Shown here piece after piece: positions 2,838-45,462 of a stretch of 47,815 nt of DNA; position 1 is the stretch's first letter; every line of letters starts with the position of its first letter. Under the pieces are notes generated by a model. The model was not told the origin of the DNA. It saw only the letters and a list, made by a program, of their open reading frames with translations, and did not search any database. The stretch lies in the NCBI GenBank assembly GCA_903859815.1, contig CAIOOA010000089.1, positions 1-47,815 of the forward strand. The letters run 5' to 3'. This stretch comes from an uncultured Methylococcaceae bacterium (lineage in GTDB: Bacteria > Pseudomonadota > Gammaproteobacteria > Methylococcales > Methylococcaceae). A program made the translations under genes and the position numbers.

Positions 2838-2853
2838 AGCAACCACTGTGCCA
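2838..2853 (-). promoter_or_regulatory. Sigma-54 promoter of nifV operon
   Basis: On the minus strand the bases read TGGCACAGTGGTTGCT, a full match to the -24/-12 consensus TGGCAC-N5-TTGCW. Transcription would start near 2826, about 30 bases before the nifV ATG. Confidence 0.9.
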
Positions 2854-3011: not shown

Positions 3012-3031
3012 AATATTCGACGTCGAATATT
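3012..3031. repeat. 20-bp palindrome, parS-like copy 1
   Basis: AATATTCGACGTCGAATATT is a perfect palindrome in the intergenic space between divergent nifV and the glycosyltransferase gene. An identical copy lies at 10341 and near copies at 15838 and 17550, flanking and inside the parAB locus. Candidate ParB binding site; a repressor operator is the alternative. Confidence 0.6.
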
Positions 3032-5429: not shown

Positions 5430-5660
5430 CATTCACTGCCTGTTCCCCGAGCGAAGTCGAGGGGCTAAGCCGAAGCGAATATGCTGGCTTCGACTCCGAT
5501 CAGCCAGCGACTTATCTTTAACTTACTGGCTGATGTTACGCACGGACGTGAAATAGGTAAGACGGGAACGTCAAAGCTTGCTTTGACAAGAGCCTGAAAT
5601 GCGAAGCATGCTTCGCATGTCAAAGCAAGCTTTGACGCTCCAATCCTATGCCGCTGCGAC
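5430..5660. repeat. Intergenic nested inverted repeats
   Basis: A 19-bp inverted repeat (5569-5587 and 5619-5637) encloses a perfect 20-bp palindrome ATGCGAAGCATGCTTCGCAT at 5600-5619. The flank TTTGACGCTCCAATCC recurs at about 38923, where a degenerate shorter copy lies upstream of the SulP gene. It is an interspersed repeat without coding content, filling most of the gap 5377-5753. Confidence 0.7.
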
Positions 5661-5753
5661 ACATCAGTTACTGGATAATTCAACAGCATTGACCCCAAGC
5701 CACCACTACAATCATAAAAACAACTGAAAACCCTTTGAGAGCAAGCAACCCAC

Positions 5754-8044: not shown

Positions 8045-9064
8045 TCAGTTCTTAACTTGTCTCATGCGTTGCTTAAGCGCTTCCAACGCCTTGCGGGAAG
8101 CAGCCAAATCTTGTTGCCATTCTGCATTGGATTGATCCAATTGAGCAAGGCGTTCGGCGATAGCGAGATCGGCCTCGCGCTCGATCAAGGCTTCCGCTAA
8201 TTGCCTTTGTATTTCAAATATTGTGGCGAGCCAACGATGAGTGATAGACAAATCCCGTTGCCAAACAGTGTTGTCCGGGTCGTGCTGCGTCAACCGTAGC
8301 CTAATGTCTTTGCTGGCTTGAAATTCCAGCAAGGCATCAACCGATTTACCCTGCGCCTGTAACACATTGCCCACGTTATTGTGGGAGACTGACAACTCCC
8401 GCTGCCAATCGGCGTTGTCCGGGTCTTGCTGGGTCAGCCGCAGCAGGATGTCTTTATAGGATTGATATTCCAGCAAGGCTTCGGCCAGTTTCCCCTGCGC
8501 CTGTAACACATTGCCCACGTTATTGTGGGAGACTGACAACTCCCGCTGCCAATCGGCGTTGTCCGGGTCTTGCTGGGTCAGCCGCAGCATAATGTCTTTG
8601 TAGGCTTGATATTCCAGCAAGGCTTCGGCCAGTTTCCCCTGCGCCTGTAACACACGGCCCACGTGATTGTGGGAGACCGACAAATCCCGCTGCCAACCGG
8701 TGTTGTTGAGGTCTTTCCTAGTCAACCGCAGCAGGATGTCTTTGAAGGCTTGAAATTCCAGCAAGGCTTCAGCCAGTTTCCCCTTCGCCTGTAACACACT
8801 GCCCACGTAATCGTGAGAAATCGACAAATCCCGCTGCCAATCGGTGTTGTCCGGGTCTAGCCGGGTCAGCCGCAGCATGATGTCTTTGCAGGCTTGATAT
8901 TGCTGTAAAGCGCCAGCTAAATCTCCTTCTGCCATCAACGTGTTGCCCAATAATTCCCGAGCATCGGCTTCACTTTGATCGTCATTGGCAATCACAAATA
9001 AAGGGATTGCTGCTCGCGCCATAGTTTCAATGTCTTTAAGCGGTAAGCGCCCCCCCTTATCCAT
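8045..9064 (-). CDS. TPR array protein of SEFIR cassette
   Basis: A 339-residue helical-repeat protein with about six copies of a 48-residue TPR-type unit (pattern DPDNADWQRELSVSHNNVG then VLQAQGKLAEALLEYQ). The units are 144 bp at DNA level and two are almost identical, a sign of recent tandem duplication. Such arrays form sensor or scaffold ends of STAND proteins. Its frame overlaps the upstream gene by 73 bases, and its first codons (MDKGGRLPLKD) read on from LGW of that gene if one base is gained in a G7 tract. It may therefore be the C-terminal part of one split protein rather than a free gene. Convergent with the repeat at 7792. Confidence 0.85.
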   Translation of the reverse strand: MDKGGRLPLKDIETMARAAIPLFVIANDDQSEADARELLGNTLMAEGDLAGALQQYQACKDIMLRLTRLDPDNTDWQRDLSISHDYVGSVLQAKGKLAEALLEFQAFKDILLRLTRKDLNNTGWQRDLSVSHNHVGRVLQAQGKLAEALLEYQAYKDIMLRLTQQDPDNADWQRELSVSHNNVGNVLQAQGKLAEALLEYQSYKDILLRLTQQDPDNADWQRELSVSHNNVGNVLQAQGKSVDALLEFQASKDIRLRLTQHDPDNTVWQRDLSITHRWLATIFEIQRQLAEALIEREADLAIAERLAQLDQSNAEWQQDLAASRKALEALKQRMRQVKN

Positions 9065-9651
9065 CCCAAAGTAATCAAGGCACGGGCTAGGGTGACACCT
9101 TTAAGCCATTCGCCAGCCAATAGTTCTTCCAGCGCCAAAGCCAAGGCTTGCAGTGGTTCAAACCGACCCGCACGATCCCATTCTTGATAAAGCTTTAGCA
9201 ATGCCTCGGCAGACTCAACCGGTACGTCTGTAGTCAGGCGATGGTAAAGAGCTTCAATTCGCTGATGAGCTTCCGAGCCAGCCAAACATTTGGCTGCACG
9301 GCGCGACAATTCGTCAAACCTTGCTCTATTTTCAGTTGCCACACATTTACGCAAGGCCAAGCGGGTGGCTTCGTGGACGTTATGGGCGTTACGCGCTTTG
9401 AAGCTTTCCACTTGCGGCACGGTGATAAGCTGCTGGTAATAGCGAGTGGCTGTGGCTAGGTCGGTTTCCAGCAAGGCGGCAAGCAGGGCGGCATCGAACC
9501 AATGCGGTATCGCAGCGGCTTCCAACACCGGAAATAACGCCGGATCCACTGCCTCGCAACTGAGTTTGGCGGTCAGCACCGTGAGGGCTTGCGGGTTATT
9601 TTGGACACGCTGCAATTGTTCCAAGGCATCTTCTATATGCATGACGGTCAC
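8992..9651 (-). CDS. Helical middle part of SEFIR/STAND cassette
   Basis: A 219-residue all-helical protein. It starts with GTG at 9651, which overlaps the TGA of the SEFIR-ATPase gene (GTGA), so the two are translationally coupled. The N-terminal half (ALEQLQRVQNNPQALTVL, then PHWFDAALLAALLETDLATA) looks like the winged-helix and helical region that follows a STAND ATPase core; the C-terminal half is repeat-like. The last 20 residues (after LGW) look out of frame: a one-base change in the G7 tract at 9050-9056 would run on into the TPR gene. No enzyme motif seen. Confidence 0.75.
   Translation of the reverse strand: MTVMHIEDALEQLQRVQNNPQALTVLTAKLSCEAVDPALFPVLEAAAIPHWFDAALLAALLETDLATATRYYQQLITVPQVESFKARNAHNVHEATRLALRKCVATENRARFDELSRRAAKCLAGSEAHQRIEALYHRLTTDVPVESAEALLKLYQEWDRAGRFEPLQALALALEELLAGEWLKGVTLARALITLGWIRGGAYRLKTLKLWREQQSLYL
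9050..9056 (-). other. G7 homopolymer at frame junction
   Basis: Seven G on the coding strand. Reading AGG GGG GGC in the upstream frame, either an eighth G or a -1 slip leads directly into GGG CGC TTA, the frame of the TPR protein. Candidate phase-variable tract, programmed frameshift site, or sequencing error. Confidence 0.6.
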
Positions 9652-10811
9652 CCCCTAGTCCGGCTGAAGCTGCGCAATAATGCGCTAGTCTGTCCAGGGT
9701 CGCCTTGGGAAATGTGCAGCAACATTTCGATATGGTCATTGCTGATGGAGGAATGGCCCAAGGCATGAGTCGCAAAGTCTATCCAGTGCTTGGCTTCTTT
9801 GATGGCCGGCAGGGTCGTGTGAACCGCCAACCCCGCCCACGGGAAACAGGTGCGTTCCGGCACTTGCTTGCCACTCAGTATCACCACCAAGCCCGGACAA
9901 TGCTCCATCCGTCGTAGCAACTGACCTTCGATCCAATCGGCAATGTCCAACGGTACGTCTTGGTAAGTGTCGAATCCCAACACGAGGGGTTTAGGCAATT
10001 TTTCCAAATCCTTGAGCAAGGCAGTTTTGCGTGGTGGTCCGTTGGCAGAATGGAAAGCGGGCAGGAGGGTCGCGTCCACTTCCAAGGTCAGGAAGTCAAA
10101 CAACTCATCCAAGGTAGGGCAACCTTTCAAATCCAACTGCACAGACAACAAGCCAAGCTGCTTGGCAAATTTAATCAATTCCGTTAGCAAGACGGTTTTG
10201 CCGCTGCTGCTAGAGCCATCGACTAGGAAAATTCGCTCTGAACGGCGAGCGGTAATCATTTCATGAAAGAGTTCAAAAGGTTCGGTGCGATCCGCCAAGG
10301 ACCAAGGATAATCAGCCACAGGTTCGGGCCAAACGATATTAATATTCGACGTCGAATATTCCGGCAACGCACCGAGTCTTCGCAACCAAGCGAGGATATT
10401 CAAAAAGTCGCGGTTGGCATCAAAAGTATGGTGACCGGCAATAAGTTTTGGGATGTAGTTTTTATGATCGTTTTCAAAGGTCACTGCACGACAAAAATCG
10501 ATTTCAGCGCCACACTCGTTTAGCCTCTGATGTAGCACCTTGGTTTCAAGCGTCGCCCCTTGCCGGACTCCTCTAGGTTGTTCACCATCCCAACATTTTC
10601 GATAGGTGGGCGTGAACACCAATAGCACAATATCGGCCTCTCCCGCGTTTTTTTCACACCATGTATTCCAACCGCCATCAGGCCCGCCGTCATTATAATC
10701 CCGGTCTAGGATGATGCTGACGCCTTGATGACGCAAACGGTCAGCCAAAGCGCATACCCGTTGCTCGTGCACCTCACTTTCTTGGCTGTAACTGATGAAA
10801 ACCTTAGGCAT
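9648..10811 (-). CDS. SEFIR domain/P-loop ATPase (STAND-like)
   Basis: A 387-residue protein. Residues 1-150 form a SEFIR domain (TIR superfamily): PKVFISYSQESEVHEQRV, LDRDYNDGGPDGGWNTW, and ADIVLLVFTPTYRKCW. The second half is a STAND-type ATPase with Walker A DGSSSSGKT and Walker B PLVLGFD. Such proteins signal through ligand-driven oligomerisation, and many serve in antiphage defence. ATG 10811 (MPKVFISYS) is the natural family start; a TTG upstream would add 17 unneeded residues. It ends in a GTGA overlap with the next gene. A 20-bp parS-like palindrome lies inside the coding region. The cassette lies between two MITE-like repeats. Confidence 0.85.
   Translation of the reverse strand: MPKVFISYSQESEVHEQRVCALADRLRHQGVSIILDRDYNDGGPDGGWNTWCEKNAGEADIVLLVFTPTYRKCWDGEQPRGVRQGATLETKVLHQRLNECGAEIDFCRAVTFENDHKNYIPKLIAGHHTFDANRDFLNILAWLRRLGALPEYSTSNINIVWPEPVADYPWSLADRTEPFELFHEMITARRSERIFLVDGSSSSGKTVLLTELIKFAKQLGLLSVQLDLKGCPTLDELFDFLTLEVDATLLPAFHSANGPPRKTALLKDLEKLPKPLVLGFDTYQDVPLDIADWIEGQLLRRMEHCPGLVVILSGKQVPERTCFPWAGLAVHTTLPAIKEAKHWIDFATHALGHSSISNDHIEMLLHISQGDPGQTSALLRSFSRTRG
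10341..10360. repeat. 20-bp palindrome, parS-like copy 2 (inside SEFIR gene)
   Basis: AATATTCGACGTCGAATATT, identical to copy 1 and sharing the flanking T and CC. Being inside a coding region, it is unlikely to be a promoter operator. Confidence 0.6.
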
Positions 10812-10888
10812 GTTGTTTGTTGGCTCGCGAGAGTAGATGCATTTGATGCCAAATTGTAACAAGTTTGCCTACGTTCACGAAATTGAGC

Positions 10889-15768: not shown

Positions 15769-15793
15769 AAAGCCGCGAATCTAGCGGCTTTTT
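15769..15793 (+). terminator. Terminator of nifLA
   Basis: AAAGCCGC pairs with GCGGCTTT around a seven-base loop and runs into a T tract. Confidence 0.85.
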
Positions 15794-15837: not shown

Positions 15838-15857
15838 GATATTCGACATCGAATAAA
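15838..15857. repeat. parS-like copy 3
   Basis: GATATTCGACATCGAATAAA shares the ATATTCGAC-RTCGAATA core. It lies upstream of the abrB-parA-parB-rep series. Confidence 0.6.
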
Positions 15858-15955
15858 TTCCAGCCATTTTCCTCTTGACTCTGTGCCTATCTGCGCTATT
15901 ATAAATCTTTGAAATTGATAAATTGCGAATTTTAAACGCGACGGGTGAATCCAAA

Positions 15956-16156
15956 ATGACTCTTGTTCGGATCAAACAAAACTTCCAGATCACATTACCT
16001 GCGGAGGTGCGCAAACATCTCAATATTGCGCAGGGAGACTTCTTGGAGGCGACTATCCGCGACAATGAGATCGTCCTAACACCCAAAGCACTGGTAGATA
16101 GAGCTTTGGAATTGGCGGATCATGGCGAAAAAGAAGCCAAGGCTGTCAATGCATAA
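15956..16156 (+). CDS. AbrB/MazE-type DNA-binding protein
   Basis: A 66-residue swapped-hairpin AbrB protein: VRIKQNFQITLPAEVRKHL followed by GDFLEATIRDNEIVLTPKAL, then a charged tail. This fold serves as antitoxin or transition-state regulator. No toxin gene follows; the next gene is parA after about 105 bases. With a parS-like palindrome about 100 bases upstream it could regulate the partition operon. ATG 15956 matches the family start; an upstream in-frame start at 15923 is less likely. Confidence 0.85.
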   Translation: MTLVRIKQNFQITLPAEVRKHLNIAQGDFLEATIRDNEIVLTPKALVDRALELADHGEKEAKAVNA

Positions 16157-16261
16157 GTTCATTCGCAAAAGTTCCGATGCCGAATGTTTGGAACTCATCA
16201 CATCCCGAAATTGGCGCCTATATCAACTAATCCTAAATAATCAGAGCTTTACAAAGGAAAT

Positions 16262-17035
16262 ATGAGCAAAGTCGTAGCATTGGCAAATCAAAAAGGGGGC
16301 GTTGGAAAAACCACTTCAACGATAAATCTTGCCTATGCCCTCGCGCAACAAGGCAAGCGGACGCTTGCAGTTGATTGTGATCCCCAAGGTAGCCTTACGA
16401 TTTACTTTGGTTTCAACCCCGACGAGCTTGAAGACTCTGATTCCACTTTGTACGCCGGGTTGATCGGCGACAAGCCAATTGAATCTTTGATACTCGGCGA
16501 AAACCCGGCACTCATTCCGGCAAGCATCTCCCTTGCCAATGCAGAGCCCGAATTGCTGGTAAAAATCATGCTGAGTTCACAAAAGGTGTTGCGGGACAAA
16601 TTAAAGGGCGTTCGGGACAATTACGACTTCATTTTAATAGATTGCCCGCCATCTTTGGGGTTGCTGACCATAAACGCACTGGTCGCTGCCGACTTGGTTC
16701 TCGTTCCGGTAAAAACTGACAACCTTTCTTTTCACGGTGTCGCAAGGCTATTTCAGACCATAGAGCAAATCCAAGCCGACCTAAACCCTACGCTAAGGGT
16801 CTTGGGCATCCTTCCCACCCAATACAATCCACGCAATGTTCACGACAATCAAATATTAAACGGGGTAAGGGACGCACTTTCCGGTCAATCAGTGAATATC
16901 TTCGACCCAGTCAACCGCAGCACTGTCTTTGACAAGGCAACCTCACTTGGCATTCCGACCGTGGCCATCACCCCTGGCAGCCCAAGCGTCCTTTCGTACC
17001 ATCAGGTCGCGGAAGCACTTATTAACATACCTTAG
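16262..17035 (+). CDS. parA: ParA partition ATPase
   Basis: A 257-residue deviant Walker ATPase that moves ParB-bound DNA on the nucleoid. Walker A is KGGVGKTTS (residues 10-18), then DCDPQGSLT, IDCPPSLGLLT and the C-terminal SVLSYHQVAEAL. It has no N-terminal HTH, so it resembles chromosomal or type Ib ParA in length. AAAGGAAAT precedes the ATG. parB follows after 12 bases. Product most like ParA of plasmids and secondary replicons, given the rep gene and iterons nearby. Confidence 0.92.
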   Translation: MSKVVALANQKGGVGKTTSTINLAYALAQQGKRTLAVDCDPQGSLTIYFGFNPDELEDSDSTLYAGLIGDKPIESLILGENPALIPASISLANAEPELLVKIMLSSQKVLRDKLKGVRDNYDFILIDCPPSLGLLTINALVAADLVLVPVKTDNLSFHGVARLFQTIEQIQADLNPTLRVLGILPTQYNPRNVHDNQILNGVRDALSGQSVNIFDPVNRSTVFDKATSLGIPTVAITPGSPSVLSYHQVAEALINIP

Positions 17036-17047
17036 ACGCCGATATCG

Positions 17048-18037
17048 ATGGAACAGAAACCTCAACTCGCGGCCAGCCTGTTCGGGAACGTCTCGCCGAA
17101 CACACCCAAAATCAAGGATATCGACTTATTCAATATTCTTCCGAACCCTGGTCAACCTAGAAAGACCTTTGACGAGCAAAGTCTTCGCGAATTGGCCGAC
17201 TCCATTGATCAGCACGGCCTATTGCAACCGATTACAGTCAAGCGAAAGGAGGACGATCAAGATCGCTACATACTCGTAGCGGGGGAGCGGCGCTTCCGCG
17301 CACACCAACTTCTCGGCAAAACCAAAATTCTAGGCATTGTCCTGACTAGTGGCAATATTGACGAACTTGCAATCATTGAGAATCTGCAACGTGAGGACCT
17401 CAATCCGATAGAGGAGGCTGAGGCACTTTCCAAACTCATGGAACGCTACCAATATACGCAGGAGGCGCTCGGAAAGGTGGTCGGCAAGGCGCAGGCAACC
17501 ATTAGCAACATATTAAATCTAAACAAACTCCCCGAGCAGATTAAAAGAGAATATTCGACATCGAATAGTAAAGTATCAAAATCACTGCTGATGGAAATCG
17601 CCCGACACGAAAATCATAGCGAACAACTCAGACTATGGGATTCAGTAAAGTTTGGCAACGCAACCGTCCGTGCAGCCAGGCAGGCAAAGAAGGAGAAAAC
17701 CCAACTCAGGGAGGCAACCCCTATCGTCAAACTGACCATTTCAGCCGGGAAACTGTTTGCCTACCGACTTAACTTGCTACAGAGAGCAGATATTTTTGCC
17801 AACACTACCGATGCGGGCGAAATCATCTCCCTCCACGATAAAATCAATCAACAAATTGGCAATTTGTACCCGCCCGATGAACGCTTGTGGCAAGCCGTCG
17901 TTGAATTAAACAGCCAACTCGAAAACATTCAAAGCGACGTAGCATGGTCGGATACGATGGCAGAAGATATTTCCATCCTCCGAGACAAACTAATCGAGTT
18001 GACGGCGAAATTTGGAAAACAAAATGACGGAAAATAG
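17048..18037 (+). CDS. parB: ParB partition protein (CTPase type)
   Basis: A 329-residue ParB. The N-terminal domain has NPGQPRKTFDEQSLRELADS and the CTP-binding VAGERRFRAHQLLG (near 76-89); IIENLQREDLNPIEEAEAL and the HTH LGKVVGKAQATISNILNL follow, then a linker and C-terminal dimerisation region. ParB loads at parS and slides along DNA. Its own coding sequence holds a parS-like palindrome (17550), read as EYSTSNS. The rep gene starts inside its 3' end, so parA-parB-rep form one unit. Confidence 0.92.
   Translation: MEQKPQLAASLFGNVSPNTPKIKDIDLFNILPNPGQPRKTFDEQSLRELADSIDQHGLLQPITVKRKEDDQDRYILVAGERRFRAHQLLGKTKILGIVLTSGNIDELAIIENLQREDLNPIEEAEALSKLMERYQYTQEALGKVVGKAQATISNILNLNKLPEQIKREYSTSNSKVSKSLLMEIARHENHSEQLRLWDSVKFGNATVRAARQAKKEKTQLREATPIVKLTISAGKLFAYRLNLLQRADIFANTTDAGEIISLHDKINQQIGNLYPPDERLWQAVVELNSQLENIQSDVAWSDTMAEDISILRDKLIELTAKFGKQNDGK
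17550..17569. repeat. parS-like copy 4 (inside parB)
   Basis: AATATTCGACATCGAATAGT within parB. parS sites inside or next to parB are common in ParABS systems. Confidence 0.6.
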
Positions 18038-19259
18038 CCCTGCCATCAAGGACGAGACTGCCATAGAACAAGTCCGAGCCATCATCCGCCCGGAATTGAA
18101 TATTGAAAAGCATGCAGATTTTATCTTTGCACCCTCCCATTCCAAGCGAATCCGCGAGCCTAGAAAAAAAATGTGGGCAACGGAAATTGAGGGAGGGCGA
18201 AAGGCAGCCTCTTACCTGCTCATCGAACCCATCTATGGAGGGAAGACGCCAACAACAAAAACACGAAAAGTCTATTTGGTCTTGGTGAAACTTTGGGAGG
18301 CGCGTACAAGGGATGACGATGTCGTTGTATTCTCAGTGCGTGAAATTGCAGATGAATTAGGCATCAAATGGGCCGGAAAAAAGACTGCCGAGGATATTTA
18401 TCGGGAAATTCAGACGCTTAGAGCAACAATGTTCACTTGGAGATATTCATTCCTGAATGCTGAAGGGAAAAAAGTCGATCTGCTCGACCATGTGAACATA
18501 CTGGATCGCTTTTCCTATGTCGCTTTGGAGGACCGCGACAAGATCAGCGACCGATTCCAATCCATGCATGCAATCCGCTTTAGCGAGGTAATCCTCAGCA
18601 ACCTGAAGGCTAACCGAACCAAACCAACTAATATTGAGGTCATCCTGGCGATTAAAGGTGAGTTGGCAGCCGTGCTTTACGCCCGCCTCGACATTATCCT
18701 GGCGGACAAACTGCAATATGAGAGGACTAGCAAGGGACTTTTTGAAGACATTCAAATCGATAAGGAACTCGAATACCGCTACCCCGCAGGACGTAAACGC
18801 ATCCTCGATCGAGCCATCCGCGAGATCAACGGCAAAGCCATATCTACTGGGATTCTTGATCTCAGGGTCGAAAAGACAGTGGACGGTAGTGACTGGAAGC
18901 TTGTGGCTAGAAAGTTGCCGGCACTCCCCAAATCGAACACTCAAAAACTCTTTCCAAAACGCAAACTCACCCCCCCGGCCAACCCCAAGGAAATTGTCTC
19001 TATGATCGGAAAAGAAATCGGCAATGTTGTGGGTTGGTATCCTGAGAAGCAACGCCTCTATGAATTGTTTGCTATCCACTATCCCGCAAATTTAATTTAC
19101 CAAGCCATTGCAGAATTCAAAGCAGATGTTAAAAAGCCTACGCACACAGCTAAAATATTCACCGCGATAATGCACAGACTCGCCCACCAACAGCGGTTCG
19201 ATTGGATAAAAGCCTGCCCACCAGACTGCAAATACCGGGAAAAATTACAGGGAAAGTAA
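18024..19259 (+). CDS. Replication initiator (Rep-like), plasmid type
   Basis: A 411-residue basic protein. The central part (VYLVLVKLWEARTRDDDVVVF, SVREIADELGIKW, then EIQTLRATMFTW) has the look of a winged-helix Rep domain, and LEYRYPAGRKRILDRAIREI looks like a second winged helix. I cannot assign an exact Rep family. The assignment leans on its place: overlapping parB upstream and followed at once by an iteron array and DnaA box. ATG 18024 has GGAAAA eight bases upstream; a TTG at 18012 is the alternative. It should bind the iterons and recruit host helicase. Confidence 0.75.
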   Translation: MTENSPAIKDETAIEQVRAIIRPELNIEKHADFIFAPSHSKRIREPRKKMWATEIEGGRKAASYLLIEPIYGGKTPTTKTRKVYLVLVKLWEARTRDDDVVVFSVREIADELGIKWAGKKTAEDIYREIQTLRATMFTWRYSFLNAEGKKVDLLDHVNILDRFSYVALEDRDKISDRFQSMHAIRFSEVILSNLKANRTKPTNIEVILAIKGELAAVLYARLDIILADKLQYERTSKGLFEDIQIDKELEYRYPAGRKRILDRAIREINGKAISTGILDLRVEKTVDGSDWKLVARKLPALPKSNTQKLFPKRKLTPPANPKEIVSMIGKEIGNVVGWYPEKQRLYELFAIHYPANLIYQAIAEFKADVKKPTHTAKIFTAIMHRLAHQQRFDWIKACPPDCKYREKLQGK

Positions 19260-19269
19260 GGCGGTACTC

Positions 19270-19813
19270 GGGAGGTTTCAGACAAGTCGTTGATCTATCG
19301 AAAATAGGGAAAGGATAGGATTAGATGACCCATAATGGATCGTGAAAAAATTGAAATACTTCCAAGATCAAAAAGCGTCAAGCCAAGGACGCATTGAAAA
19401 TGGATTTAAACACGCCTGGCTAACCAAAAAATCAATCACACCCCCCTCGGCTATCTACAATTAAGCATTGAGTTGCGAAATCATTGGAAAGCCACGGAGC
19501 TAAAAATCAATCCTTTCCGAAATTGGTCGGGGAATAAAATCCATGTTGCATTATTATTCAATTGAAATGGGCTGAAGCTCTCAACTGAGACAGGGAAAAA
19601 TAGTGCAAGTCACGGTTATTACGGATGACTCAAATAGGGAAAGCAGGCTGGGAGGTTTCAAACAAGTGGACAAAGGAAAAGACATGGGAGGTTTCAGACA
19701 AATGGCTGTGGATAACCTGCATATACCGTGGGAGGTGTCAGACAAGTTGCTGGGAGGTATCACCCATAGTAGTGGGAGGTATCAGACAAGCCCTTGGGAG
19801 GTATTAGACAAAT
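19270..19813. other. Iteron-type replication origin
   Basis: Seven copies of an 18-bp motif GGGAGGTTTCAGACAAGT or variants, all in one direction: 19270, 19650, 19686, 19730, 19752 (degenerate second half), 19774 and 19796. The last four are spaced by exactly 22 bp, two helical turns. The first lies 10 bases after the rep stop. The gap between 19290 and 19650 is AT-rich and holds no gene, and could be the melting region. With rep, parAB and a DnaA box this makes a plasmid-type oriV. Confidence 0.82.
19707..19715 (-). promoter_or_regulatory. DnaA box within the iterons
   Basis: TGTGGATAA is the exact complement of the consensus TTATCCACA, between iterons 3 and 4. Confidence 0.75.
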
Positions 19814-20240
19814 GCAGCTTGCTGGAAGGCAGTCAGGGCAAGGCTCACAGAGGATTTCGACAACTTGGGTACTAGCTTTAAGCACTAGCTCTTTGCACAT
19901 GTTTTAAGTACCGCTCAAACATGCCAAATCATTCCGACCGAAGCATCATCAAACGAACCTTAATGAAAAGGGCATCAAATCAATTAGACGAACGTAAAAT
20001 TCAACCACCAATCCCCCCTATTAGATGCACACTCAACAATAAGACTACACTTGAAGAAATCTGTTAATATTCAGCCAGCGCTTTCCCTTTGCCAATCAAA
20101 ATTGAGATTGAATAGGAACTAGAGCCGATCAAAGGAACCTACTGTAGCTGCAACAACAAAAGCCCGGTACAAGATGCTGATTGAAAGCGTTAGAAATTTA
20201 ATGAGTTGTTTTGGCATTTGACTACAACAGAGAAAAAACA
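19814..20240. other. Gene-free stretch after the iterons
   Basis: Holds a degenerate iteron-like piece near 19850 and two direct ACTAGCT repeats near 19873-19890. I see no gene, RNA or clear promoter in the rest. Confidence 0.5.
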
Positions 20241-21929
20241 ATGAGCGGGATAAACTTTCCAGTAAATAAGCAAATTTGGCTTCGTTTTATCGATGTGGTA
20301 AAAGCTTTTATCACATCCAATGTTGGGGGCAGGGCAATCTGGCTTTCAGCAGCCCTTATTGCGTTGCTATTGGGGGTAAATGGCTTCAATGTGGTCAATA
20401 GCTACGTGGGTCGCGATTTCATGAGTGCCATCGCCGAACGCAATCAATCCGCCTTTGCATGGAAAGCCATTCTTTACATAGGTGTTTTTGCAGCGTCAAC
20501 CATAGTCGCCGTGTTGCACCGTTACGCTGAAGATAGCCTTGGCATTCTATTTCGTGAATGGCTTACTAAACATTTGACCAATGCCTATCTTGATGGACGA
20601 ACCTATTACCGGTTGAAGGTTGACGGTGTGGTCGAAAACCCAGACGAACGAATTGCGGATGATGTCAAAACTTACACGATAACGACCCTTTCCATCATAT
20701 TGATGCTCCTCAATGCAAGCGTCACGGTTATTGCATTTTCAAGCGTCTTATGGACAATAAGCCCGTCTCTGTTTTTCATTGCCATTTCCTATGCGTTACT
20801 GGGTTCCATCTTCGCAATCAAGTTGGGTCGCCCGTTAGTCGGATTGAATTCAAACCAACTCGACAAAGAAGCCGACTTTAGGGCTACGCTAATCCATATA
20901 CGGTCGAATGCCGAATCAATTGCTTTATCACGCAGGGAAGGAAGGCTAAAGGCACGGTTGCTGCACAGGATTGACGCTCTGGCAAGCAACATGCGGCAAA
21001 TTTTCATTGTGAACCGGAATCTGAATTTTTTCTCTACGGGTTATTTTAATTTAATCCAAGTGATTCCCATATTAGTCGTGGCTCCTTTGTTTTTCCGTTC
21101 TGAAGTTGAATTTGGGGTCGTCACCCAATCGGCAATGGCTTTTGCTCAGTTGGTAGGTGCGTTTTCACTGATTGTCAGCCAATTCCAACCCATTACCTCT
21201 TTTACAGCCGTGCTTTCAAGGCTAAATCATCTTTGGGAAGCCATAGATCACCCCCAAAGTGCGAATGACTCGACCATAGAGATCATCGAGACTGACGAAA
21301 AACATATCACGTATGAAAACTTGACGCTTCGTTCCTCGGAAAACGGACGGTTGTTGCTAAACAATTTATCACTCTCAATACCCCATGGGACTAGGCTTTT
21401 AATCACCGGCCCAAACGAGGATGCAAAATTAGCCTTATTCAGGGCGACAGCGAGCATTTACGGTCGTGGTGAGGGGAAAATCATCAGGCCAAGCCTTGAT
21501 AGCATACGTTTTTTGCCGCAACGGGCCTATCTGTATCCGGGAACCTTGCGCGAATTGCTGATGCGAAGTGGCGAAGAGCATACGATTTCCGACGAACGCA
21601 TGGTCAATACGATGAGAGAATTGGGCTTAGGCTCAATCCTGTCTCGCGTAGGTGACTTGGATGTGGAACAGGATTGGGAGAGCATACTTTCACTCGGTGA
21701 AGAACAGATTTTGGCATTTACTCGTTTAGTACTCGCAGCCCCCCAATTTGCCTTCCTAGACCGGGTTTACACTGCTATGTCCCCAGACCAAGCATCGCAA
21801 TTGCTGCTGATGCTAAGCATGCACTCGATTACCTACATTGCATTGGATGAAGCGACCAATATGCCGCAACTCTACGATGCTATACTCGAAATCAAGCTCG
21901 ATGGCAGTTGGACGCTGAAGAAAAATTAA
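20241..21929 (+). CDS. SbmA/BacA-like ABC exporter with degraded ATPase
   Basis: A 562-residue fused permease-ATPase of the YddA/SbmA-BacA-like family. The N-terminal part has about six membrane helices; YYRLKVDGVVENPDERIADD and ESIALSRREGRLKARLLHR are typical family loops. The C-terminal ATPase domain has lost key residues: Walker A reads GPNEDAKLAL (near residue 390) instead of GPSGCGKSSL, the Walker B glutamate is Arg (FAFLDRVYTAM, near 503), and the H-loop His is missing, while LSLGEEQ is partly kept. It probably cannot hydrolyse ATP by itself. ATG 20241 is preferred over TTG 20211. It lies between the origin and nifB. Confidence 0.85.
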   Translation: MSGINFPVNKQIWLRFIDVVKAFITSNVGGRAIWLSAALIALLLGVNGFNVVNSYVGRDFMSAIAERNQSAFAWKAILYIGVFAASTIVAVLHRYAEDSLGILFREWLTKHLTNAYLDGRTYYRLKVDGVVENPDERIADDVKTYTITTLSIILMLLNASVTVIAFSSVLWTISPSLFFIAISYALLGSIFAIKLGRPLVGLNSNQLDKEADFRATLIHIRSNAESIALSRREGRLKARLLHRIDALASNMRQIFIVNRNLNFFSTGYFNLIQVIPILVVAPLFFRSEVEFGVVTQSAMAFAQLVGAFSLIVSQFQPITSFTAVLSRLNHLWEAIDHPQSANDSTIEIIETDEKHITYENLTLRSSENGRLLLNNLSLSIPHGTRLLITGPNEDAKLALFRATASIYGRGEGKIIRPSLDSIRFLPQRAYLYPGTLRELLMRSGEEHTISDERMVNTMRELGLGSILSRVGDLDVEQDWESILSLGEEQILAFTRLVLAAPQFAFLDRVYTAMSPDQASQLLLMLSMHSITYIALDEATNMPQLYDAILEIKLDGSWTLKKN

Positions 21930-22070: not shown

Positions 22071-22086
22071 TGGCATAAGGGATGCT
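22071..22086 (+). promoter_or_regulatory. Sigma-54-like promoter of nifB
   Basis: TGGCATAAGGGATGCT has GG-N10-GC spacing with one mismatch in each element, 50 bases before the nifB ATG. Confidence 0.75.
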
Positions 22087-22135: not shown

Positions 22136-23626
22136 ATGATGGAACTACCTGTTTTAAATAATCCCCAACCCGCCACCCAAGGTGGTTGCAGCGCATCATC
22201 CTGTGGATCGACCGACGATCAGGTTAATCAATTGCCTGACCATATCCGCGAAAAGGTGCAAAACCACCCTTGCTACTCGGAGGATGCGCACCATTATTTT
22301 GCCCGTATGCATGTGGCGGTGGCCCCTGCCTGCAATATCCAATGCCATTATTGCAACCGTAAATACGACTGCGCCAACGAATCTCGCCCTGGCGTGGTTT
22401 CTGAATTGCTCACCCCCAACCAGGCGGTCAAGAAAACCATGGCGGTCGCGGCGAAAATCCCGCAGATGACTGTGCTTGGCATTGCCGGACCCGGTGATCC
22501 GCTCGCAAACCCGGAACGCACTTTTGAGACATTTCGTCAATTGAGCAAAGATGCACCGGATATCAAACTCTGCGTGTCCACCAACGGCTTAGCCCTGCCC
22601 GAATCGGTGGATGAGTTGGCCAAGCATAACATTGATCATGTCACCATCACCATCAATACGGTTGATGCGGAGATTGGCGCTAAGATTTACCCTTGGATAT
22701 TTTGGAAGAATCGCCGCATCAAAGGGAAAAAGGGTGCGCAAATCCTCATTGATCAGCAACAGAAAGGCTTGGAGATGTTGGTGGCGCGTGGCATTTTGGT
22801 GAAAGTCAACTCAGTGATGATTCCCGGCATCAACGACCAGCATTTAGCCGAAGTCAGCCGTATCGTCAAGGCCAAGGGGGCTTTCTTGCATAATGTCATG
22901 CCACTCATCGCTGAAGCCGAGCATGGAACATTCTATGGTGTGATGGGTCAACGTGGGCCAACCCCGGACGAATTGATGGACTTGCAAGAAGCTTGTTCCG
23001 GGGACATGAACATGATGCGTCATTGTCGCCAATGTCGTGCCGACGCGGTGGGCTTGTTGGGCGAGGACCGTGGGTCGGAGTTCACCCTGGACAAGATTGA
23101 CGCGATGGAGATCGACTACCAGTCCGCGATGGAAATGCGCAAAGTGGTGCATGAAGGCATACTCGCCGACATGGAGGAAAAGCGTGCCGTCCAGGCCGGC
23201 AAGGCCAAACCGCAAATTCCACTTGAAGCCCGTCCAGTCTTAATGGCGGTTGCCACGTCTGGGCAAAACCTCATCAACCAGCACTTTGGACATGCCAAGG
23301 AATTCCAGATCTACCAGGCTTCCCCAAAGGGTGTGAAGTTTATGTCCCATCGCAAAACCGACCAGTATTGTTCGGGTGACTCCACTTGTGGGGAGGCCGA
23401 ATCAGCCTTGGCCCTGACCATACGCTCATTGGAAGGTTGCGAGGCTGTGCTGTGTTCGAAGATCGGCTACGAACCTTGGGAAATGCTGGAGGAAGCCGGC
23501 ATAGTCCCCAATGGTGAACATGCCATGGAAAGCATTGAAGAGGCTGTGATGGCGGTTTATCTGGAGATGTATCAAACCGGCAAGTTGGAGGAAAAGCCTG
23601 TTCTATCCAATCGGGCAATGGGTTAA
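22136..23626 (+). CDS. nifB: NifB, radical SAM FeMo-cofactor precursor synthase
   Basis: Joins two 4Fe-4S clusters with a carbide from SAM to form NifB-co, the core of all nitrogenase cofactors. A 496-residue protein: the radical SAM motif CNIQCHYC (about residues 63-70) is followed by NRKYDCANESRPG; AGPGDPLANP, CRQCRADAVGLLGEDR and the rest of the core follow; the C-terminal 110 residues (PVLMAVATSGQNLINQHFGHAKEF...) are a NifX-like cofactor-binding domain, as in proteobacterial NifB. All expected cysteines appear present. It has its own promoter and terminator, so it is a single-gene unit here, separated from nifLA by the replicon. Confidence 0.97.
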   Translation: MMELPVLNNPQPATQGGCSASSCGSTDDQVNQLPDHIREKVQNHPCYSEDAHHYFARMHVAVAPACNIQCHYCNRKYDCANESRPGVVSELLTPNQAVKKTMAVAAKIPQMTVLGIAGPGDPLANPERTFETFRQLSKDAPDIKLCVSTNGLALPESVDELAKHNIDHVTITINTVDAEIGAKIYPWIFWKNRRIKGKKGAQILIDQQQKGLEMLVARGILVKVNSVMIPGINDQHLAEVSRIVKAKGAFLHNVMPLIAEAEHGTFYGVMGQRGPTPDELMDLQEACSGDMNMMRHCRQCRADAVGLLGEDRGSEFTLDKIDAMEIDYQSAMEMRKVVHEGILADMEEKRAVQAGKAKPQIPLEARPVLMAVATSGQNLINQHFGHAKEFQIYQASPKGVKFMSHRKTDQYCSGDSTCGEAESALALTIRSLEGCEAVLCSKIGYEPWEMLEEAGIVPNGEHAMESIEEAVMAVYLEMYQTGKLEEKPVLSNRAMG

Positions 23627-23825: not shown

Positions 23826-24410
23826 TTACGGTTTTCTGCCACCGCCGTGGCTCGAATTGTCGTCGCGGGCATCATCGTGATTCAAATCGTCGTCGTGGAC
23901 GTTATCCCGGTTTGAATCGTCGTCATGGAAACCGTCGTGGTTCAAATCGTCATCGTGGAAACCATTCTGGTTCAAGTCGTCATCGTGGAAACCGTCGTGG
24001 TTCAAATCATCGTCATGGAAGCCGTCGCGGTTAAGATCGTCGTCATGAAAACCATCGCGGTTTGAATCGTCGTCGTGGAAGCCGTCGCGGTTCGAATCGT
24101 CATCTGCCCAACCGTCGCTGTTATGATCGCCGCTGTTTTCTGCCGACAGTTTCACTTGGAAGGTGGTTTGGCCCATGCCGCTAAATCCCCCCACCCAATT
24201 GCGAATATCGAAAATGTTCGTTGCATTGGGAAGTGTGATAATTTGATAGACCGGATAGATGCCAGGACCCATGCCTAAGGTGTTCCCTAGTACAATCTGC
24301 TTGGTGCCTGAATAGGTTTGCGCAAGATCGTGCGGTGCGGGGTTGCTCACCCATTGATTGTTGGCGTTTAAATAATATAGGTTTCCGGCGACATTGGCGG
24401 CGATGTACAA
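23826..24410 (-). pseudogene. Asp-rich tandem-repeat protein, probably 5'-truncated
   Basis: The C-terminal half is about nine repeats of a 10-residue unit DSNRDGFHDD, with Dx(N/D)xDG spacing like EF-hand or thrombospondin type 3 calcium loops. The N-terminal half (GNLYYLNANNQWVSNPAPHD) is a beta-rich domain. No ATG or GTG is available; the frame stays open about 30 codons further upstream to a TAG near 24490, with plausible coding (RISLNFPQTKTGDLYIAAN) but no start or signal peptide. It looks like the mature end of a secreted calcium-binding protein that lost its N-terminus. The first TTG is used here for the coordinate. Confidence 0.55.
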
Positions 24411-42578: not shown

Positions 42579-42707
42579 TTCCGTCCATACCTTATTAGTT
42601 TCTTTTAACAACAATGACTTGGATTAAAGGTGGCTTGGTTACACACTTATTTTCAGATTTATTATACATCTTTGTTGGTGTATAATAAAAATTTATGTAT
42701 CAACAAT

Positions 42708-43592
42708 ATGCATCACGGTAAGTGCCATTTATGTCTCAGGGACAAGTATCTGCAACTGAGTCACGTATTGCCAAAATTTATATTCAAATGGTATAAGCAT
42801 AACTCACCATCATATTTGCGCAGTGGGCTTGAACCAAATATGCGAATTCAAGATGGCGAGAAAGAATATCTATTTTGCGAAGAATGCGAGCAGCGGTTTA
42901 GTAAATGGGAAGATAGGTTTGCTCGTGAAGTGTTTCCCAAACTGCAAGATCCAGAAAATGCCAACCCCATAGTAAACTACAAAGAGTGGGCAATTAAATT
43001 CGCAACGTCAGTGTCATTCCGTGTCGCAGTTTTCTCGGAGAAGGAAAACCGTCTAGCACATTTCCCGGATGAACTGAAAGCTGAGACACAAAAAGCCAAA
43101 GAGCAATGGCGAAAGGTACTGCTGGGCGAAATCGAACATCCGGGAAAATACGAACAGCATTTAATGCATCTAGATGTTATTGAAAGCCATATCGTGCCGA
43201 ATCAATCCCGATTCATGAATAGGTATTTTATTGGTGCCACTCATGCCGATATGGTGTGTAGTGACGATACTGCGTTCACATATGCAAAAATGTTTAGGGT
43301 CGTAATTTTCGGGCATATTACCGAACTCAGAAATAAATGGCATGGTACCAGAATAAGTCCCCAATACGGAACCTTCGGAGGTAAAAGTATTGTGGTTCCC
43401 GACTATGTGATTGAGTACATGTCTGGTAAGGCGAATGAGCTTCTTCACGCAGGCGACAAGCTGTCGCAGCGTCAACATGAAGTTATCGAGAAAAATGTTT
43501 TGAATAATGCTAGGCGAATGGTAAGCACTGCAATGTTCAAAGCTTCTATATCCGATAAAATGCTTGCTAAGGGTCAAAAAAATGATACTTAA
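42708..43592 (+). CDS. HNH-like/zinc-ribbon protein, function unknown
   Basis: A 294-residue protein beginning MHHGKCHLCLRDKYLQLSHV, then LPKFIFKWYKHN and FCEECEQRFSKWEDRFA. Two CxxC pairs with an SHVLPKF between them resemble a diverged HNH/zinc-ribbon fold like that of HNH_5 proteins. The rest is unassigned. The gene is AT-rich, with a TATAAT box just upstream at about 42681. Start ATG 42708 is chosen because the motif begins at once; no good ribosome binding site is seen. It may be a nuclease of a restriction or mobile system; this is inference. Confidence 0.7.
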   Translation: MHHGKCHLCLRDKYLQLSHVLPKFIFKWYKHNSPSYLRSGLEPNMRIQDGEKEYLFCEECEQRFSKWEDRFAREVFPKLQDPENANPIVNYKEWAIKFATSVSFRVAVFSEKENRLAHFPDELKAETQKAKEQWRKVLLGEIEHPGKYEQHLMHLDVIESHIVPNQSRFMNRYFIGATHADMVCSDDTAFTYAKMFRVVIFGHITELRNKWHGTRISPQYGTFGGKSIVVPDYVIEYMSGKANELLHAGDKLSQRQHEVIEKNVLNNARRMVSTAMFKASISDKMLAKGQKNDT

Positions 43593-44242: not shown

Positions 44243-44322
44243 ATGGATTGAACTTGCGAAGCCCATCATTCGCGAAAGATGTCTGTTCTGACTTACAACG
44301 AAGAATGAATGCTGGAAATGCT

Positions 44323-45462
44323 ATGAATTATAATGAAACCATCACTATGGATTCACCCATAATGGGATCAATCCCTACCCAAAATCTTCATAAGCTTAGT
44401 GACGAGATTATTAGCGAAAATTTTCGGCAGTCTTTTGTTGCTTATCAAAATAATATTACAACAAAGCCTTTGCTATTGAACGGTGATGCCGTAACAATAT
44501 TGCGTAACTTACCAAATGAATGTATTGATTTTGTTATGACTTCTCCCCCTTATTGGGGGAAACGAGAATATGAAAATGGTGGCATTGGCATGGAAAAAGA
44601 TTACCGCGATTTTATCAAAAATCTATCTATTATTTTTGCCGAAATTAAAAGAATGCTTAAACCAGAAGGTTCTTTTTGGTTAAATCTTGGGGATACCTAT
44701 AATGCCAAGGGTCTGGTAGGCATACCTTGGCGTGTTGTTTTTGAACTAGTTGATAATCAAGACTGGATTCTGCGTAATAGTGTAATATGGAATAAGTTGA
44801 AAGGTGGAATGGATAACAGCAAAGACCGTTTAGGCAATGTTCACGAAAATATTTTCCATTTTGTCAAACAAGCTAAAGGGTATTTTTACGATGCTGATGC
44901 CATTCGTTCGAAACCGCGCGAATCTAAAATTGTTAATGGCGCGATTGTCTCGGCTACCGGTGTATCGGGTGTTCGATATAAACGACAAATTGAATTATCA
45001 ACCGCTTTATCAGATAGCGAAAAAACAACTGCCCTTTCTGCGCTTCAGGAAATGTTAGCCGCTATGGAAGCGGGTGAACTATCTGATTTTAGAATGATTA
45101 TTCGTGGTCAACAACGAGCCACACATTCAGATAAAGAAAAAGTTTCGGGACGTGCCAAAGAACTTAGAGAAAAAGGTTTTTATTTTCTTAAGTATCACCC
45201 CAAGGGCAGTAAGCCATTTGATGTATGGGATATACTCCCTGAAGACACCCAACGACGAGAAGCACATTTTGCACCTTATCCTACTGATCTTTGTCAAATT
45301 CCTTTGTTAGCTACTTGTCCAAAAGATGGTATAGTGCTTGACCCGTTTTGTGGGACGGGGACAACCCTAATCGCCGCTCAACATCTTGGGCTAAAATCAA
45401 TAGGGATAGATATATCACGTCGTTATTTAGAATTAACCTTAAGACGCTGCGATTCTTTATGA
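44323..45462 (+). CDS. DNA methyltransferase, beta-class (m4C or m6A)
   Basis: A 379-residue site-specific DNA methyltransferase. Motif IV TSPPYWGKREY comes first (about residue 67) and the SAM-binding motif I LDPFCGTGTTLIAAQHLGL last (about 340), with GIDISRRYLELT after it, so the motif order is beta-class. The SPPYW form is usual for N4-cytosine or some N6-adenine enzymes. The gene is clearly AT-rich and lies between direct repeats, so it was probably acquired. ATG 44323 is chosen; an earlier start at 44248 would read through a repeat. No complete restriction enzyme is recognisable beside it. Confidence 0.88.
   Translation: MNYNETITMDSPIMGSIPTQNLHKLSDEIISENFRQSFVAYQNNITTKPLLLNGDAVTILRNLPNECIDFVMTSPPYWGKREYENGGIGMEKDYRDFIKNLSIIFAEIKRMLKPEGSFWLNLGDTYNAKGLVGIPWRVVFELVDNQDWILRNSVIWNKLKGGMDNSKDRLGNVHENIFHFVKQAKGYFYDADAIRSKPRESKIVNGAIVSATGVSGVRYKRQIELSTALSDSEKTTALSALQEMLAAMEAGELSDFRMIIRGQQRATHSDKEKVSGRAKELREKGFYFLKYHPKGSKPFDVWDILPEDTQRREAHFAPYPTDLCQIPLLATCPKDGIVLDPFCGTGTTLIAAQHLGLKSIGIDISRRYLELTLRRCDSL

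Follow-up and report, generated by a model that had tools for sequence, protein, structure and literature searches.

A predicted plasmid-type replication and partition module, conserved in relatives, among the nif genes of an uncultured Methylococcaceae bacterium

The module between nifA and nifB

The window analyzed here is an entire contig (C89; 47,815 bp) of the 5.8-Mb draft genome G000 (315 contigs) of an uncultured Methylococcaceae bacterium, and the subject of this work is a row of plasmid-type genes, abrB-parA-parB-rep, accompanied by seven iterons and a DnaA box, that lies between the nitrogen fixation genes nifA and nifB. All of these elements were present where the original prediction had located them (Table 1), and nifL (TIGR02938, 698 bits), nifA (TIGR01817), and nifB (TIGR01290) all scored above the cut-offs of their families. 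Judged from its sequence, the set that sits amid the nif genes is a complete and conserved plasmid-type replication and partition kit: a ParA ATPase adjoins a ParB having N-terminal and HTH domains, as in ParABS systems, and iterons and a DnaA box lie beside rep, as in origins served by an iteron-binding initiator. No overlap was found between the two ends of C89. Comparisons were made with seven drafts of the same genus (G000 included; 315–660 contigs each) and with G011, the nearest closed relative, consisting of one contig of 4,703,534 bp.

The seven iterons, distributed over 19270–19811, fit GGGAGGTNTCAGACAA with no mismatch (four copies), one mismatch (two copies), or three mismatches (one copy). 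Scanning the window with three mismatches allowed returned nine sites, seven from the array and two strays, against a mean of 1.21 in shuffled sequences, and none of 100 shuffles reached nine. Other stretches of G000 (374 kb) contained seven single matches, all with three mismatches. Each of G000, G002, and G001 has an array of seven copies with at most three mismatches; stray iteron-like sites were left uncounted (two in G000, four in G002:C420, the best with two mismatches, one in G001:C226 with two mismatches, and two in 51,955 bases of G003). A single DnaA box is by itself not significant, since one or more were present in 27 of 100 shuffles; the box is kept in both rep-bearing relatives.

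Table 1. Positions of the module and associated features in the 47,815-bp window.
Feature	Position	Strand	Remarks
parS-type palindrome TATTCGACGTCGAATA	3014..3029	none	218 bp upstream of nifV start
parS-type palindrome	10343..10358	none	inside SEFIR-domain gene (9648-10862)
Terminator-like hairpin	15769..15791	+	3' of nifA; scan gives 11 in window, shuffle mean 7.4
parS-type palindrome TATTCGACATCGAATA	15840..15855	none	head of module; kept in G001
Sigma-70-like promoter TTGACT-16-TATTAT	15875..15902	+	both hexamers also in G001; 11 vs shuffle mean 9.7, not above chance
AbrB/MazE-type DNA-binding protein	15956..16156	+	MazE_antitoxin 4.4e-11; conserved in G001
parA (257 aa), ParA-type ATPase	16262..17035	+	AAA_31 4e-57 (Pfam)
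parB (329 aa)	17048..18037	+	ParB_N 1.7e-22, HTH_ParB 2.7e-17 (Pfam)
parS-type palindrome	17552..17567	none	inside parB
rep	18024..19259	+	ATG 18024; frame open from TTG 18012; overlaps parB end
Iteron 1	19270..19285	+	directly 3' of rep
Iterons 2-7	19650..19811	+	starts 19650, 19686, 19730, 19752, 19774, 19796; last four 22 bp apart
DnaA box TTATCCACA	19707..19715	-	perfect; between iterons 3 and 4
ATP-binding cassette (ABC) transporter	20211..21929	+	ABC_membrane_2 and ABC_tran; between iterons and nifB; not in original prediction
Sigma-54-like site	22071-22086		ahead of nifB; 2 mismatches; scan total not above chance
nifB	22136..23626	+	TIGR01290

Predicted centromere sites and the Rep initiator

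A further element, missing from the original prediction and first met as a repeat at two places in the window, is the palindrome TATTCGA(NN)TCGAATA. Four exact copies occur in the window and none more at two mismatches (shuffle mean 0.11; none of 100 shuffles reached four), and in the entire G000 draft just these four were found, all on C89. Whole-genome counts were four in G001 and G006 and five in G002 and G003, and zero in G004, G005, and G011, which are relatives without the module; a control with the sequence written backwards gave zero in all eight genomes. The copies lying on the parAB contig were 4/4 in G000, 3/4 in G001, 5/5 in G002, 3/5 in G003, and 3/4 in G006. Two of the off-contig copies (G003:C96 and G006:C250) are located less than 200 bp upstream of nifE (TIGR01283), a third (G001:C322) follows an lldD-like gene named by eye, and the fourth is on an unassigned contig, G003:C199. 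One copy lies within parB in each of the five genomes. Diverged palindromes, also with one copy in parB, were found in a sister system on another G000 contig, C130 (TATCGGAC(A/G)TCCGATA), and in two Nitrosococcus plasmids (AGTCGGACGTCCGACT). The restriction to four sites in the genome, the absence from genomes without the module, and the diverged sites of the sister systems are together strong evidence that the TATTCGA(NN)TCGAATA copies are parS sites. The chromosomal parS consensus that we take to be canonical had no match within two mismatches in the window; another parAB pair with one canonical-type parS was found on a different G000 contig (C129).

The original prediction had allowed that rep might lack key Rep domains. 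This held for single-profile searches, in which no Pfam or NCBIfam family matched Rep above its cut-off (best Rep3_C, E 0.083, 13.6 vs 21.1 bits), and not for profile-profile comparison, which links Rep to plasmid initiators. Sequence searches against solved structures gave no usable match, and Rep matched PHROG 23878, of unknown function, at 4.6e-7. No relatives were found in plasmids (limit 1e-5) or phages (limit 0.01), and none were confirmed in viral contigs. A plasmid tblastn search at E up to 10 yielded one match (E=4), in frame with a Rubrobacter replication gene whose protein carries RPA and Rep3_N domains; as a single comparison this match has an E of 8e-07. One phage match, also obtained at E up to 10, was opposite a protease gene and was discarded as a chance match. 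An initiator profile was then made from nine proteins hand-picked from 115 plasmid records matching the Rubrobacter protein. Using hhalign, the three Rep sequences, which are close to each other and form a shallow query profile, aligned with the nine initiators over 244 columns with a probability of 97.5, an E of 8e-12, and about 23% identity; the probability for a ParB control was 0.1. This alignment indicates that Rep is a distant relative of RPA/Rep_3-type initiators and not a member of a curated family. Its likeness to such initiators, carried by Rubrobacter, Deinococcus, Thermaceae, and Manganitrophus plasmids, consists of the profile alignment, and it differs from them in its low identity and in falling below the curated cut-offs. 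A structure model of Rep built from the same three sequences (mean pLDDT 42) was too poor for fold searching. Among 369 genomes of the class, Rep was found in its own genome and in one other (83 positions, 1.2e-9), the latter not being used.

Conservation and gene order in relatives

Scanning named genomes with Rep returned two records, Loclat_bin-06492 and LJ_bin-0959, both metagenome-assembled genomes of uncultured Methylococcaceae; Lake Loclat belongs to a published lake dataset with Megahit assemblies, according to the available text of PMC8121793. Rep of G000 and G001 are 92% identical in amino acids and 79% in nucleotides, with a nonsynonymous divergence (dN) of 0.045 and saturated synonymous sites. 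The ratios of nonsynonymous to synonymous divergence (dN/dS) between these two genomes were 0.029 for parA, 0.055 for parB, 0.024 for nifB, and 0.036 for the ABC gene by NG86, and 0.042, 0.099, and 0.028 for parA, parB, and nifB, respectively, by YN00. At sequence level, rep, parA, parB, and the iteron array are thus conserved between species of about 80% DNA identity, which indicates strong purifying selection. Identity to G002 was 97.8–98.4% for parAB and rep, 96.2–98.6% for the measured neighbours, and 94.8% for the iteron region. Compared with G001, the block from par to nifB is about 80–81% identical and the iteron stretch is more diverged (74%). Since the divergence of the module is like that of nifB, the module appears to have been inherited with the nif region. 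Its recent transfer was ruled out on the same ground and by the different behavior of the sister module on C130 (L079; 6,207 bp), which contains parA, parB, an HU-type gene (named by eye), a 404-aa gene, and its own version of parS. With 94% identity to the counterpart in G001 over 4.75 kb, against about 80% for the block in the window, this system behaves like a mobile plasmid, which it probably is. The 404-aa gene had no Pfam or NCBIfam match and no relationship to Rep; that it is another rep is a guess.

Rep was present in 3 of 61 genomes searched, its own included. ParB proteins more than 70% identical occurred in five of the seven same-genus genomes and in none of 54 others, and a second ParB type (44–50%) was found on small contigs in four genomes. 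The best plasmid relatives of ParB, all below 60% identity, belong to Nitrosococcus plasmids and Azospirillum megaplasmids. The five genomes with parAB and parS are the same ones that contain nifB at 91% identity or above; nifB of G004 is 62% identical, and G005 has no nifB, its best NifA match among those listed being 44% identical, a level like that of other activators. Across the seven drafts, the partition genes are therefore present and absent together with this lineage of nifB (in five and two genomes, respectively); being of one genus, these drafts represent few independent events.

G002 keeps the order of the window, beginning on the nifV side and extending as far as nifB. An intact parA-parB-rep-iterons-ABC-nifB row, preceded by clpX and nifM, is found in G001, where nifLA is on another contig than the module (among the matches listed). 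G006 contains parA-parB and after it a hydrolase/TPR gene (named by eye), then the ABC gene and, further on, nifB, with no nifLA. In G003, parAB is at a contig end, 568 bp past parB, and the ABC gene and nifB occupy one other contig each. Of the five genomes, four showed linkage of par, ABC, and nifB, and two had nifLA next to the module; as in the window, the ABC gene is adjacent to or not far from nifB in G001, G002, and G006, and not in G003. Genome searches detected no rep in G003, G006, or G011. The original prediction had started from nifL, nifA, and nifB being adjacent in Azotobacter vinelandii, and had considered, as one of two options, a plasmid inserted between adjacent nifLA and nifB. 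This idea was not supported by the comparison, since in relatives, whether they have rep or not, nifLA lies apart from nifB. Among the matches listed, nifA and nifB are on different contigs in G001, G003, and G006, with other genes after nifA, and are 1.3 Mb apart in G011, and this separation ruled out the split of an adjacent pair. The stretch of G011 matching NifA (C1:1699656-1701266) contains one TGA in frame. The available text on Methylospira mobilis Shm1 describes a single 4.7-Mbp contig with nifBOQ apart from a nifXTKDHLA cluster, and names Candidatus Methyloumidiphilus as a close relative (PMC6956133).

Other features of the window were also annotated. The terminator that had been proposed after nifA corresponds to a hairpin at that place, the scan for such hairpins being not clearly above chance. 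The frame of abrB, with its start at ATG 15956, is open from TTG 15923, and a 38-codon frame (16149-16265) with no counterpart in G001 overlaps its end; this could possibly be the remnant of a toxin partner, which is a guess. Upstream of nifV, the sigma-54 pattern is matched perfectly at 2838-2853 (minus strand), with a parS-type palindrome about 160 bp further out. On the minus strand, a SEFIR-domain protein (PADLOC bSEFIR, 9.7e-24) and then a TPR-repeat gene occupy 8045-10862, and alignment of the latter to G002 suggests a different number of repeats; also on this strand, 23826-24410 codes for a protein with a D-rich repeat run (NRDGFHDDD). A type II DNA methyltransferase-like gene (44248-45462) and, near it, a gene for a 320-aa protein without PADLOC match (42630-43592) were found, as was a prc-type protease gene, which in G001 is on a different contig from nifB (among the matches listed). 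A repeat of about 140 bp (5530-5670) is multicopy in related genomes, G005 in particular; its copies are often located at the ends of contigs, and it probably breaks assemblies.

Secondary replicon or integrated plasmid

Reading from the DNA which parts are present, how they are conserved, and where the parS sites lie, we lean to a nif-bearing, low-copy, chromid-like secondary replicon with a plasmid-derived, vertically inherited module, to which we give a probability of about 0.5 and which we rank ahead of integration. A lasting and selected rep with its iterons is hard to reconcile with a dead origin, and a relic origin would not be expected to keep them for this long. The additional parAB with canonical-type parS on C129, the plasmid and megaplasmid relatives of ParB, and the shared distribution with this nifB lineage also count in favor of a separate replicon. 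The nif genes may be carried on a DNA molecule of their own. We advance more tentatively, at a little short of even odds, that a secondary replicon is dedicated to the nif region and has an initiator and iteron origin of its own as well as centromere sites dispersed among nif genes, and that nitrogen fixation is gained, lost, and dosed with it. As in chromids, plasmid-type replication and partition genes are combined with a genome-like composition: tetranucleotide correlations of three flank stretches were 0.78–0.83, against 0.47–0.86 in 18 G000 chunks (20 fetched, two too short omitted), and that of the module was 0.40, where stretches of matched length averaged 0.53 (standard deviation 0.11). 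Regarding binding, activity, and autonomy, we infer that Rep would bind the 22-bp-spaced iterons and, together with DnaA at its single box, open the DNA beside rep. The four parS sites, which span 15 kb of nif-region DNA, would be loaded with ParB, and ParA would separate the resulting complexes. AbrB probably acts at the promoter directly after parS and in this way autoregulates the row abrB-parA-parB-rep.

Several observations weigh against a secondary replicon and favor its main competitor, the ancient integration of a plasmid into the chromosome, with rep and iterons silent or kept for other reasons and ParABS acting as an extra regional centromere; we regard this as possible, although the less probable of the two. 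G006 retains parA, parB, parS, the ABC gene, and nifB without rep, the hydrolase/TPR gene being in its place, and no iteron match was found in 26,887 bases of its module contig. G003 also retains parAB and parS and lacks rep in the genome search, although its contig ends soon after parB. Between these two genomes dN/dS was 0.069 for parA and 0.109 for parB, indicating that the partition genes are still under selection without rep and are thus independent of this rep. In composition, the flanks match the remaining genome and look chromosomal. In G005, without nifB or module, genes for CrcB, SEFIR, TPR, and ABC proteins and a cysteine-synthase-like gene (named by eye) are on one contig, as in a chromosomal neighbourhood, and in G011 nifA and nifB are both on its single contig (among the matches listed). 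GC skew, calculated from 4-fold sites of plus-strand genes (one of 20 G011 control chunks was N and gave no value), did not switch in the expected direction at the module in G000 (-0.065 left, -0.138 right) or G002 (-0.076, -0.127); it did so in G001 (-0.206 to -0.002), with just 9.5 kb on the right, and was considered not decisive. Integration does not readily account for Rep, iterons, and DnaA box being conserved between G000 and G001, nor for selection on rep as strong as that on nifB, which are unexpected for a silent origin.

A fused chromosome with two origins, in which a captured secondary replicon and the chromosome both still have working origins, would reconcile the conserved rep and iterons with the chromosome-like flanks and the loss of rep from the G006 locus; the missing skew switch in G000 and G002 speaks against it, and we consider it improbable. 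An assembly or binning chimera joining a plasmid module to nif genes, conceivable because all seven same-genus genomes are fragmented, is very unlikely given the identical nifA-par-rep-ABC-nifB junctions in G002, the par-ABC-nifB linkage in G001 and G006, and the nifB-like divergence of the module.

The secondary replicon favored here resembles known systems in part. Nitrosococcus pNHAL01 and plasmid A also have a parA-parB pair (ParB 48–53% identical over the matched part) and a palindrome inside parB, with a second just after; they differ in the parS arms and in a tyrosine recombinase near parB, and have no rep-named gene and no nif gene among the features listed around parB. In repABC replicons, partition and initiator genes also form one row, and Paracoccus pAMI4 has extra parS sites kilobases away (available text of PMC9040568). 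In contrast, the initiator in the window is RPA-like and its parS sites are among nif genes; its ParA scored 115.6 bits against a partition_RepA cut-off of 348.45, and rep had no NCBIfam match. A parS within parB is also known in Bacillus subtilis (parS-359; PMC4442127, as far as its text was available), in a system that is chromosomal. In Methylocella tundrae, a methanotroph with megaplasmids, nifHDK is chromosomal according to the available text of PMC6522787. Titles and abstract openings of the literature on methanotroph plasmids and nif, a coverage outside which most subscription journals fall, contained no announcement of the arrangement described here.

If the origin is active, the dosage, inheritance, and loss of nif genes in lake methane oxidizers would follow this replicon and not the chromosome, and methane oxidation and nitrogen fixation would be tied through genome architecture. 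Loss of the whole replicon would then explain why G005 has neither nifB, nor a match of NifA grade, nor the module. The parS set would provide a short DNA tag for assigning draft contigs to this replicon, and the parS sites within parB, which differ among sister systems, may represent a natural series in which changes of ParB specificity can be followed.

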